Shown: positions 17,918-20,803 of the stretch, piece by piece
How the letters are laid out: each line of letters opens with the position of its first letter
Numbering within the stretch: position 1 is the first letter of the stretch
Virus record (IMG/VR): IMGVR_UViG_3300017708_000169
Span: 1 to 25,355 of that record
Source of the DNA: a virus
Length of the DNA stretch: 25,355 nucleotides
Strand: one strand, 5' to 3'
Translations under genes and position numbers: made by a program
Notes under the pieces: model-generated
Told to the model about the DNA's origin: nothing
Databases searched by the model: none
What the model saw: the letters and a program-made list of their open reading frames with translations, nothing else

Positions 17918-18124
17918 CTACCAAGGTCTGAGTTTAGGCCGTACTATATGTGATGCGACCTCGCTTACATCACAGTGACCTTCTGTTGCATTAATCTGAT
18001 CGTAGAGCGCACCGCTATCTAGTAGTACGCTCCAACAGGCGTCTTCAGTTGGAAACCAAACACTGAATTGCATTTGGTGTTCCATCACTGAGTAGCCTAT
18101 AGTCATTAAAGTCCAGAACTCCAT
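17918..18124 (-). CDS. Small protein of unknown function (68 aa)
   Basis: No family is recognised. The 68-aa product is rich in aromatic residues and Met at its N-terminus (MEFWTLMTIGYSVMEHQMQF), with a mixed hydrophilic remainder ending in RPKLRPW. The ATG at 18124 shares its A with the VWA stop (TAATG) and has GGAG upstream. The longer upstream frame, starting at 18220, overlaps the VWA gene and lacks an SD, so it was not used. The gene is translationally coupled to the VWA/metallopeptidase gene and probably works with it. Confidence 0.7.
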   Translation of the reverse strand: MEFWTLMTIGYSVMEHQMQFSVWFPTEDACWSVLLDSGALYDQINATEGHCDVSEVASHIVRPKLRPW

Positions 18125-19398
18125 TACCGTAGATCTCCACTCTTTACATGGACGTGTTTGCCTACAGGCGGTACGCAAGACGGATTGTTCACGATAACCC
18201 ACAACACTGGATGATCCCAATCACCGAACCCACTCCAAAGATGACCATCGGTAACAACGATAGACGCAGTTGGATTGACGTGATGTTCACGTAGGAACGG
18301 TGGCACACAGCGAACATCAGTACCGCCACCGCCACAAGGTTTTGTAGTACCCTCTACCTTGTCCAGTTCGTCCCTCTCATAGCGTTCGTGTCCAGACACT
18401 TCTGTATCCCAATAGATAACGTGCAGTTCCTCCGGTGTAACGTCCATTGCGGCTTTGGCTGTTGCTCCAACCACAACCTTCAGTTCGTTAGCGCCAATAG
18501 AACCAGACATGTCGTTGGCACACACCAAGCTTTCTACTGTCTCACTGACCGTAGACGGCATGATCATATCGTACTGCAAGTACCTACGATTAGGTTTGTT
18601 ATATGTGCCGAAGTCTTTGCCCGAACAGTAAGTCGTAACGAACTCACGTATCTGCTCACGGAAATCAATCGGTGGCTTGAGCAATTCCTCAAGATGTCTT
18701 GCACCACCAGTTCCCGCTTTTCCTGCAACGATATCGCCCTGACGTATAGCTTCATCAATCTCCTTAGCGTTCTCTTTGGCTTTCTCCACAGACATGTCCT
18801 TGGCTTTTTCAAAGTCATGCTTGTCTTGGAACCCCTGTGGCGCACCACCCCCTTTGTTATTACCGTTAATAACATCGGACGGTAGCCCTGTCTTAGGGTT
18901 AGTAGGCGTACGTGGCGGTTTACCTTTTTGCTTGTCATCATACAGATCCCAGAATATCCGCGCGGTATCCCATGTGTCATCGTACTTAGGATCATACAGT
19001 GCGCCATCGATCCAATCGATTAGATCACCATACTTAGACGTGTCACTGTACTCATGCCAAATCAGATAGTTGATATAGTAATCCATAGACATGTTTGCCA
19101 ACTCAGGGTCTATCTTCCAGAGGTGCGCCCACGTAACAAGGTGCTTCATCATCTTGTGATAGTTCTCGTGTATGAGGACAAAGCGTAGTTGTGCATCACC
19201 CAGTGGATCACAGTAGCCACGACCATACCATTCGTTACGACCATCAGTGCAAGCGGTCATCATAGGATCAACGTCATCAATCTTACGATCACCGATAATA
19301 AGTATACCTGACAGTATAGGTGCGTCCTTCATCAGACGCATTGTGTTCTTAGCTAGACGTTGCTCTAGCGTAAGATTAGTACTTTCTAATACAAACAT
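18124..19398 (-). CDS. VWA-like metallopeptidase (DUF2201-type)
   Basis: A 424-aa protein with the DUF2201 arrangement: an N-terminal putative metallopeptidase domain with HENYH at 77-81 (an intact HExxH zinc motif), a low-complexity Gly/Asn/Lys linker at about 150-190, and a C-terminal VWA-like domain. The VWA domain shows a MIDAS-type NDMSGS at 295-300, TD at 360-361 and VVTDGH at 381-386. Proteins of this kind pair with MoxR-family AAA+ ATPases, as in CoxE/CobT or ViaA-type systems, which insert metals or remodel protein complexes. The MoxR-like gene lies two tiny genes upstream. AAGGAAGGAG precedes the ATG. A member of the palindrome family (18856-18873) lies inside the coding sequence, at residues about 176-181 of the linker. 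Confidence 0.85.
   Translation of the reverse strand: MFVLESTNLTLEQRLAKNTMRLMKDAPILSGILIIGDRKIDDVDPMMTACTDGRNEWYGRGYCDPLGDAQLRFVLIHENYHKMMKHLVTWAHLWKIDPELANMSMDYYINYLIWHEYSDTSKYGDLIDWIDGALYDPKYDDTWDTARIFWDLYDDKQKGKPPRTPTNPKTGLPSDVINGNNKGGGAPQGFQDKHDFEKAKDMSVEKAKENAKEIDEAIRQGDIVAGKAGTGGARHLEELLKPPIDFREQIREFVTTYCSGKDFGTYNKPNRRYLQYDMIMPSTVSETVESLVCANDMSGSIGANELKVVVGATAKAAMDVTPEELHVIYWDTEVSGHERYERDELDKVEGTTKPCGGGGTDVRCVPPFLREHHVNPTASIVVTDGHLWSGFGDWDHPVLWVIVNNPSCVPPVGKHVHVKSGDLR
18856..18873. promoter_or_regulatory. 18-bp palindrome, family site 3 (inside VWA gene)
   Basis: GTTATTACCGTTAATAAC has 7-bp perfect arms around CCGT. It lies inside the low-complexity linker of the VWA protein, where codon choice is free to accommodate it. 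It fits the consensus GTTATTA-NNNN-TAATAAC. Confidence 0.7.
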
Positions 19399-19401
19399 AT
19401 A

Positions 19402-19536
19402 TTATTCTCCTTCCTTCTGTACTCGTATATATTCACGAGTTATTTTATGTTTAAAGTACAACGCAGACTTGTCCTCGTGCATGTACATGTATAGGTCTTT
19501 CATAACTTCGAAAGCCTCTTCAAACTTCTGGTTCAT
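19402..19536 (-). CDS. Small protein of unknown function (44 aa)
   Basis: A 44-aa reading frame from the ATG at 19536, with an excellent AAAGGAG 6 nt upstream. It ends 3 bp before the VWA start and contains the VWA SD within its last codons. The product is charged and helical (MNQKFEEAFEVMKDLYMYMH), without a recognised family. Position between two coupled genes and a strong SD support it. Confidence 0.65.
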   Translation of the reverse strand: MNQKFEEAFEVMKDLYMYMHEDKSALYFKHKITREYIRVQKEGE

Positions 19537-19546
19537 AGTATCTCCT

Positions 19547-19636
19547 TTAGAATATTTGGAAGTGGACACCGAGTATCCACCCCATCACCATTAAGACTGC
19601 AAGCAGTCCGACTAGTTTATCTTCACCTGTCATCAT
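19547..19636 (-). CDS. Tiny single-pass membrane protein (29 aa)
   Basis: A 29-aa frame from the ATG at 19636, overlapping the MoxR stop as ATGA, with GCAGGTG as a moderate SD. After a short acidic start (MMTGEDK), nearly the whole rest is hydrophobic: LVGLLAVLMVMGWILGVHFQ is a plausible transmembrane helix. It could anchor the MoxR/VWA machinery to the inner membrane. The short length leaves room for chance, but the coupling geometry and the membrane-like composition favour a real gene. Confidence 0.5.
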   Translation of the reverse strand: MMTGEDKLVGLLAVLMVMGWILGVHFQIF

Positions 19637-20757
19637 ACACCTGCCGATTTCTTATCAGTTGCGCGTAGGTAGTTGTTTGCCATTGTGAAGTCAGTAAACT
19701 TCTTGTTCGTGACCACCGCCTGTTGACGCTTCTTGTCAAACTTGTCTGAGTACACACCATTCACAAACATACCATGCGCTTCGGTAGGTAGACGATCCAT
19801 GTAGTCCATCCACGCATCCATCCACGAGCGATCAATGTTCGACAATGTGCGATACATCATCAGACATACAGCCGCCGCACTGGTAGGAACTTTGGCAGAC
19901 TTTGGATTGTTCTTGATATCCTCCAACGAAACAAGCTGATCCGATAGAGAGAACTGAGCCTTCAAGTCCGTAGCCGCACGTTCACCAATACAACCAATCA
20001 AGTTCGCTACTGTAACGTCAGGCCCGAGCTGGTCACGTACCTTCAGAATGTGAGACGCGTTCTCAAGTGATCGTGGTGTGACAAACGCCCGTCTTTGTAC
20101 CTTCGGGTGATAGATGTACTCATTGTCATCAGGGTTCTCTATATCAACAAACGAGTCAAAGATCTCAGGATGTTCTTTCGCAAACAAGATAATCTGTGGG
20201 TCACAGTCGTTCCTGATAGCCCATTCCATCCACTGCTCGTTAGTCCACTTCTTGACGGTAATGATACAGAAACGGTTCCGTGCATGAGGTGGTAGTAGAT
20301 CACCAACGCCTTCTGCTCCGAGGTTAGTTGTACCGTACACGATACTCTCTGGATGTAGATCACGACCACCCATCTTACGCTCGTACATCAGACAAAGTAA
20401 TGCGTTCTGCACAGACTTGTTTGCCTTGCCAAACTCATCGACCATGATGATTACTGGACCGTCAATGTGTAAGCCAAGTTCTTCGTTAGTCACGAACCGA
20501 ACGAATTGACCGTCTGCGTCCAACTCTATGAACTTCGGTAGCATGAGATCGCCCACGTCTTTGGTAGTACAGTCGCAATAGAATACACGATGCTTCGGGT
20601 GTTTCTCTGCAAGCATGAAGCGCGTTGCGGATTTACCGTTACCAATGTCACCCTCAAGAATGAAGGTCAGTTTATGACCCAACAACGATATAGAGTTAAC
20701 GCAGTTGTCGAGATCTTGTGCATACATAGATGATGCGGTGTTATTAAAGTTTACCAT
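19633..20757 (-). CDS. MoxR/CobS-like AAA+ ATPase
   Basis: A 374-aa AAA+ ATPase. Walker A is EGDIGNGKS at 35-43, Walker B is IIMVDEFG at 103-110, sensor 1 is TTN at 143-145 and an arginine finger candidate is HARNR at 158-162. These and the size match the MoxR/CobS branch, whose members remodel or load metal into a partner, together with a VWA protein. That partner is encoded just downstream. AGGAGAACC precedes the ATG at 20757. The 18-bp palindrome at 20786 lies 29 bp upstream, in the gap after the 311-aa gene. The C-terminal third is a helical lid without recognised motifs. Confidence 0.88.
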   Translation of the reverse strand: MVNFNNTASSMYAQDLDNCVNSISLLGHKLTFILEGDIGNGKSATRFMLAEKHPKHRVFYCDCTTKDVGDLMLPKFIELDADGQFVRFVTNEELGLHIDGPVIIMVDEFGKANKSVQNALLCLMYERKMGGRDLHPESIVYGTTNLGAEGVGDLLPPHARNRFCIITVKKWTNEQWMEWAIRNDCDPQIILFAKEHPEIFDSFVDIENPDDNEYIYHPKVQRRAFVTPRSLENASHILKVRDQLGPDVTVANLIGCIGERAATDLKAQFSLSDQLVSLEDIKNNPKSAKVPTSAAAVCLMMYRTLSNIDRSWMDAWMDYMDRLPTEAHGMFVNGVYSDKFDKKRQQAVVTNKKFTDFTMANNYLRATDKKSAGV

Positions 20758-20785
20758 TAGATGGTTCTCCTGTGTTTTATGGTTT

Positions 20786-20803
20786 GTTATTATTGATAAT
20801 AAC
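20786..20803. promoter_or_regulatory. 18-bp palindrome, family site 4 (before MoxR/VWA operon)
   Basis: GTTATTATTGATAATAAC, the reverse complement of sites 1 and 2. It occupies the 51-bp gap between the 311-aa gene and the MoxR start, just before the SD. Confidence 0.85.

Follow-up and report, generated by a model that had tools for sequence, protein, structure and literature searches.

A divergent DUF3150 protein accompanies a MoxR-type ATPase and a metallopeptidase-like VWA protein in phages and plasmids

Results

Three adjoining genes in a virus fragment

The IMG/VR record of a marine virus, IMGVR_UViG_3300017708_000169, whose 25,355 bases were analysed at full length (hereafter the window), encodes a MoxR-type AAA+ ATPase and a DUF2201-type VWA protein on its minus strand. 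An earlier note, made from the letters alone, had placed this pair in an operon at 18124-20803 together with five small or unknown genes. The pair is real, adjacent and intact, with open reading frames (ORFs), Pfam and phrog_1297 matches in agreement. The interval, which stops before a conserved third gene, did not hold up as drawn, and two of the genes assigned to it (encoding 302 and 111 amino acids, aa) lie outside it, at 16667-17907. The three genes that form the conserved core, referred to here as the trio, are as follows.

20809-21744, minus strand: 311-aa divergent DUF3150-family protein, assigned by family profile, predicted fold and linkage; beyond the interval of the earlier note
19633-20757, minus strand: 374-aa MoxR/midasin-type AAA+ ATPase; phrog_1297 (2.7e-41), core residues, midasin profile match
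18124-19398, minus strand: 424-aa metallopeptidase-like and VWA protein; DUF2201_N (4.6e-18), DUF2201 (6.7e-13)

The ATPase and VWA genes lie on the replication strand, amid genes for a family-A DNA polymerase, an SNF2 helicase and a PD-(D/E)XK exonuclease, and away from the terminase gene, which is on the opposite strand. A VRR-NUC nuclease, a Gp2.5-like single-stranded DNA-binding protein (SSB) and a primase (DUF927/prim-pol) are also encoded. The nearest polymerases are those of Rhizobium phage RHph_TM3_14A and Pseudomonas phage KPP25 (~35-37% identity). The N4-type gene set that surrounds gp24/gp25 in the Schitoviridae was not found in the fragment, where no N4 RNA polymerase genes were identified; judging from its genes, the source virus does not look N4-like, despite its relatives of N4 gp24 and gp25.

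The ATPase matches AAA_5 of Pfam at 6.3e-4, which falls under the Pfam cut-off. Its AAA+ core is kept, with a Walker A motif (GxxGxGK), D107, N145, R162 and R229 accounting for Walker A and B, sensor 1 and the arginines, and Walker A was found in 95 of 96 viral homologues. The closest sequences in PDB are those of Midasin (profile search, 3.6e-38). The protein groups with AAA_5, midasin and MoxR, at a level above the individual MoxR subfamilies.

In the VWA protein, the zinc motif HExxH occupies residues 77-81, as previously claimed, and the MIDAS (metal ion-dependent adhesion site) motif DMSGS residues 296-300 (295-300 in the earlier note). Across 20 phage and plasmid homologues there is no variation at H77, E78, H81, N102, D106, N110, D296, S298, S300, T360 or D384, and HExxH and DxSGS are present in 116/116 viral homologues. 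Because of this invariance, the zinc site and the complete MIDAS (D296, S298, S300, T360 and D384) are both intact at the level of sequence; D106 is probably a further zinc ligand. A structure model of the protein matches the MIDAS of MDN1/Rea1, among other VWA domains. The PHROG label "HNH endonuclease" was rejected for this protein, since Pfam gives DUF2201 domains only. The same label stands in many phage records of phrog_1314, the family of the window VWA protein and of N4 gp25; Pfam finds no HNH domain there, and the label looks wrong.

The 311-aa protein was recognized through its family. PF11348 (DUF3150) was matched by 9 of 13 family members (best 1.6e-6). The family profile aligned with that of a DUF3150-like family from plasmids and a cyanophage at E=4e-45 (hhalign), two members of which are annotated DUF3150, and with canonical DUF3150 at E=2.9e-8 over the N-terminal half. 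The predicted fold is all-helical (pLDDT, predicted local distance difference test, 71) and matched models of viral DUF3150 proteins at E=1e-12; a fold search of PDB gave no match at E<0.001. Profile and model taken together, the 311-aa protein is a divergent DUF3150 protein. The profile searches that had been proposed supplied families for the ATPase, the VWA protein and, by way of its family profile, the 311-aa protein, and none for the 302-aa protein.

Linkage of the trio across phages, plasmids and bacteria

Scans of IMG/VR confirmed 570 relatives of the VWA protein and 432 of the DUF3150 protein, and the best 80 of each were kept for locus counts. Among loci with enough flanking DNA, those anchored on VWA contained both the ATPase and DUF3150 in 22/22 cases, and those anchored on DUF3150 contained VWA in 28/28 and all three genes in 26/28. 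Every IMG/VR locus that misses a member of the trio is short of sequence on the side where that member would lie, and the DUF3150 gene adjoins ATPase/VWA in all loci with full flank. Three gene orders were observed (DUF3150-ATPase-VWA, ATPase-VWA-DUF3150 and ATPase-DUF3150-VWA), with the ATPase preceding VWA in every checked phage locus that holds both. The expectation that the pair and the 311-aa protein recur in other phages was borne out, and a scattering of the ATPase and VWA genes, named beforehand as the outcome that would overturn the operon, was not seen.

Recurrence of the trio in unrelated settings is stronger evidence than linkage within one phage group. The freshwater cyanophage MinM2 carries the trio, and plasmids of Cupriavidus, Rhodovastum, Burkholderia and Caballeronia have genes annotated ATP-binding, DUF3150-like and VWA-like in a row. 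In Burkholderiales genomes, loci found via DUF3150 contained the trio in 33/33 cases, one of them cut at a contig end. PF11348 was present in 9 of 369 Gammaproteobacteria genomes, with a gene for VWA and HExxH next door in all nine and an AAA_5-type ATPase nearby in eight. The Escherichia coli IncC plasmid pAR060302 (7081-15074) carries a CobS-like ATPase gene, then ssb-bet-exo, then DUF3150-VWA. In plasmid pCAR1, the order ATPase-DUF3150-VWA is consecutive (ORF101-103), and genes for ssb, recT and a lambda-type exonuclease were noted within ~20 kb. A published tiling array mapped ORF100-109 of pCAR1 to one transcript, and the same paper notes conservation in R478, Rts1, SXT and R391 (PMC2642839). 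DUF3150 is therefore kept across different ATPase and VWA subfamilies, in phages and in plasmids whose neighbouring genes otherwise differ.

Companion genes and small open reading frames

The genes downstream of, and between, the members of the trio are as follows.

19547-19636, minus strand: 29-aa ORF, no third-position bias in four relatives
19402-19536, minus strand: 44-aa ORF, a weakly supported small gene; third-position changes 8 of 14 differences, three relatives; close relatives only
17918-18124, minus strand: 68-aa small gene that overlaps the VWA stop; differences strongly biased to the third position (for example 1,1,11); closer relatives only
16999-17907, minus strand: 302-aa group-specific companion of no known family, conserved in the phage group
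16667-17002, minus strand: 111-aa coiled-coil-like small protein; third-position bias 10,9,28; close relatives only
16308-16550, minus strand: 80-aa protein related over a short domain to the C-terminal part of the 302-aa protein

Packing is as tight as had been noted, with overlaps between the 311-aa gene and a 78-aa ORF, the ATPase gene and the 29-aa ORF, and the VWA gene and the 68-aa ORF. Coding support was judged from counts of differences from close relatives by codon position. A third-position bias was seen for the 44-, 68-, 111- and 302-aa ORFs, whereas the 29-aa ORF, which lies with the 44/55-aa ORF between the ATPase and VWA genes, had none (4,1,0 / 4,1,2 / 3,1,0 / 4,1,3) and is probably not a gene. 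Four of the five small or unknown genes proposed earlier are accordingly backed by codon bias. As companions of the pair, the 311- and 302-aa proteins are conserved; the 68- and 111-aa proteins, confined to closer relatives, are not general partners.

Of 56 phage-group loci that extend 4 kb or more beyond the VWA gene on its downstream side, 54 encode the 302-aa protein, at 0-2.5 kb from the VWA gene. A first synteny set (L002-L043) had made it look like a lineage-only accessory, a reading rejected by this wider set. Neither the other phage groups nor cyanophage MinM2 nor the plasmids examined have it; equivalence to the genes that follow VWA in other phage groups or MinM2 was rejected for want of a profile match. 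No PDB or PHROG family was found for it, and Pfam gave stray matches only, in one of 15 members. A role as a group-specific client is plausible. The 80-aa family is present in 51 of the 56 loci, and its alignment to the 302-aa C-terminus spans 43 columns (hhalign E=7.7e-9); the common domain reads LPxWxxxKLAVLxM...VxGVGxR...FWVY, and the resemblance suggests a duplication or fusion.

Two further proteins of the window were noted. A 1942-aa protein without a Pfam match is encoded at 23-5851 on the plus strand, opposite to the replication genes. A 143-aa protein (14561-14992) matches, through its C-terminal 85 residues alone, PHROGs that bear the name phosphofructokinase, a doubtful label given that the N-terminus resembles a helix-turn-helix.

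Palindromes and hairpins

The two elements that had been taken as the bounds of the operon are as follows.

20786-20803: 18-bp palindrome GTTATTATTGATAATAAC, between the DUF3150 and ATPase genes
16624-16660: perfect 12-bp hairpin after the 111-aa gene (z = -4.48), lacking a T-tract

Both exist. The palindrome has the form GTTATTAT(YR)ATAATAAC with a variable centre and occurs at eight mostly intergenic sites (11798, 16281, 20786, 21825, 22102, 22756 and 23684, with a weak one at 18856), giving 16 two-strand matches against 0.06 expected by chance in the whole window. Seven or eight copies are present in relatives L002-L004, whereas L006, a relative with 73% identity, has none. The copy at 20786-20803 lies 5 bases past the 311-aa stop and ~30 bases before the ATPase start, a position kept in relatives L002-L005. 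The palindrome is probably an operator or regulatory element. Since this copy lies inside the conserved trio, it splits the module and does not mark its edge. The 12-bp hairpin, lacking a T-tract, is not a classical terminator. The minus strand has a strong hairpin that resembles a terminator, GGGGAACC TTCG GGTTCCCC with a run of T after it, at 22981-23000, between a 214-aa gene and the operon region.

Discussion

A putative three-component remodelling machine

The ATPase-VWA pair by itself is not new, being already known from N4 gp24/gp25 and from jumbo phages. What appears to be new is DUF3150 as a conserved third component of MoxR-VWA machines, common to phages and plasmids. DUF3150 is mentioned nowhere in the open-access literature that was searched, and the trio as such therefore seems to be undescribed in that literature.

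In known MoxR-VWA couples (midasin, RavA-ViaA and CbbQO), the ATPase ring acts on the VWA protein, whose MIDAS in turn holds the client by an acidic residue. We give a probability of about 0.6 to the reading that the trio forms the core of a MoxR-type machine of three components, in which DUF3150 serves as adaptor or client and which remodels an intracellular complex of the element's DNA. By analogy with these couples, the ATPase would form a ring, and the MIDAS of the VWA protein would grip an acidic residue of the client or the ring and pass on the ATP-driven pulling. The HExxH domain, given its intact site, might cut the client or might be a structural or peptide-binding zinc module. The DUF3150 protein, with its long helices, would be a dedicated adaptor that brings the client, or the client itself, and the 302-aa protein would be a further partner or client within this phage group. 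The machine would act inside the cell, most likely on a complex that the element's DNA needs in order to replicate, recombine or become established. Context suggests such a target rather than the capsid: the same trio is kept by conjugative plasmids, which form no virions, and its neighbours in the window, IncC and pCAR1 serve replication and recombination. This part of the reading is uncertain.

Several points weigh against it. The evidence on the trio consists of gene content, homology, linkage, motif conservation and the published cotranscription in pCAR1, and gene context points to a DNA-related target only weakly. PolA, too, is nearby in 20 of 26 loci of one phage group, so that linkage inside that group partly reflects common descent. 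The 311-aa protein of the window, searched alone, stays below the PF11348 threshold with no match, and two structure models are of moderate quality (pLDDT 71 and 73). Finally, N4, LUZ7, Thermus phage phiFa and RHph_TM3_14A have the ATPase and VWA genes with no detectable DUF3150, which is therefore not required for all ATPase-VWA pairs. A hidden DUF3150 was looked for in N4, LUZ7 and phiFa and none was detected, nor was one found among the genes tested in RHph_TM3_14A and KPP25.

A broader version may be put forward only tentatively, namely that DUF3150-MoxR-VWA is a single universal machine of mobile DNA, common to lytic phages and conjugative plasmids. It would remodel a host or nucleoprotein complex either soon after the DNA has entered or while it replicates; DUF3150 would act as its substrate adaptor, and the zinc domain would be a built-in protease.

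The main alternative, which we consider rather unlikely, is counter-defence or host takeover, in which the trio would unfold or cleave a host complex (restriction, surveillance or respiratory) in favour of the incoming element. It would suit the occurrence of the trio, amid variable neighbours, in phages and plasmids that face the same defences, and the trio operon of pCAR1 is strongly expressed in a transconjugant host and less so in the original host (PMC2642839). Against it, the PADLOC defence-system models gave no matches for four window proteins, and for the components PADLOC was uninformative, its two weak matches being generic to the ATPase fold.

Somewhat less likely again is a virion-assembly chaperone with a maturation protease, in which the pair would assemble capsid or tail proteins and HExxH would process them, along the lines proposed for jumbo phages and by analogy with Acidianus two-tailed virus. 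Virion assembly has been proposed for the MoxR and metallopeptidase-VWA pairs of group 2.2 jumbo phages (PMC7824862), and roseophage RPP1 has the genes of four virion proteins close to its homologues of N4 gp24/gp25 (PMC4193335). Against this stand the conjugative plasmids, which carry the same trio and make no virion, the position of the window trio amid polymerase, helicase and exonuclease genes and away from the terminase, and the middle expression of N4 gp24 and gp25 (PMC4193335).

It is improbable that DUF3150 is merely an old neighbour of an ATPase-VWA machine: N4-type phages do without it and neighbouring genes also stay together within one phage group, but DUF3150 is kept over three gene orders, differing ATPase and VWA subfamilies, and phages as well as plasmids. 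Least credible of all is a cobaltochelatase-like (CobS/CobT) insertion of metal that boosts cobalamin synthesis. The earlier note mentioned metal insertion by bacterial pairs of this kind, viral cobST pairs have been interpreted in this way (PMC8651126), and in the trios of plasmids and Gammaproteobacteria the ATPase is CobS-like and the VWA protein CobT-like. Against it, the window proteins have no NCBIfam match to CobS (TIGR01650) or CobT (TIGR01651), the plasmid and bacterial proteins score 95-105 bits against model cut-offs of 558, no CobN was noticed beside the trio, and DUF3150 has no place in such a system.

Comparison with known systems

VWA relatives were found in 425 phage records and ATPase relatives in 217. 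N4 gp24/gp25 share with the window the order of ATPase then metallopeptidase-VWA, and homology by profile (2e-18 for the ATPase, 1.4e-42 for VWA); they differ in sequence (~23-25% identity), and no DUF3150 or 302-aa protein was detected nearby in N4 or LUZ7. Both are core genes of the whole N4-like family and have had no assigned function since they were first described (PMC4193335), and the main text of CRISPRi-ART gives no phenotype for them. The VWA protein of phiFa is likewise paired with an ATPase. In LUZ7, ORF36 (6049-6891) directly precedes the gp24-like gene, the place of DUF3150 in the window, and was rejected as its counterpart because it encodes a ClpX-like second ATPase. An ATPase of this type is present in many Pseudomonas phages and in some phages of Salmonella, Shigella and Erwinia.

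The pair of group 2.2 jumbo phages has the same two-protein architecture, but was described as a pair, with no third component (PMC7824862). MoxR-vWA ternary conflict systems (PMC7159879) do combine MoxR and vWA with a distinct third protein; this protein is VMAP, iSTAND, FtsH or a beta-propeller rather than DUF3150, and the systems were described in multicellular prokaryotes and have variable effectors. Midasin/Rea1 (MDN1), a ribosome assembly factor, is the closest solved relative of the ATPase by sequence and has a MIDAS-type VWA domain, but is one giant polypeptide and, to our knowledge, has no HExxH domain.

The closest parallel in gene content is pCAR1, with the same three genes in a row, cotranscribed, and a VWA protein with HExxH and DxSGS; its ATPase is of the CbbQ/CobS type and its VWA protein CobT-like, whereas that of the window is of the DUF2201 type. 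The paper on pCAR1 names MoxR and VWA and leaves the middle gene unnamed (PMC2642839). That plasmids carry the trio makes it less likely that such pairs serve virion assembly alone, and DUF3150, by travelling with the pair in hundreds of other phages and in conjugative plasmids, offers a third handle on the machine. With pCAR1 in Pseudomonas putida, a plasmid model is at hand for deletion of the trio and for assays in which no virion is involved.

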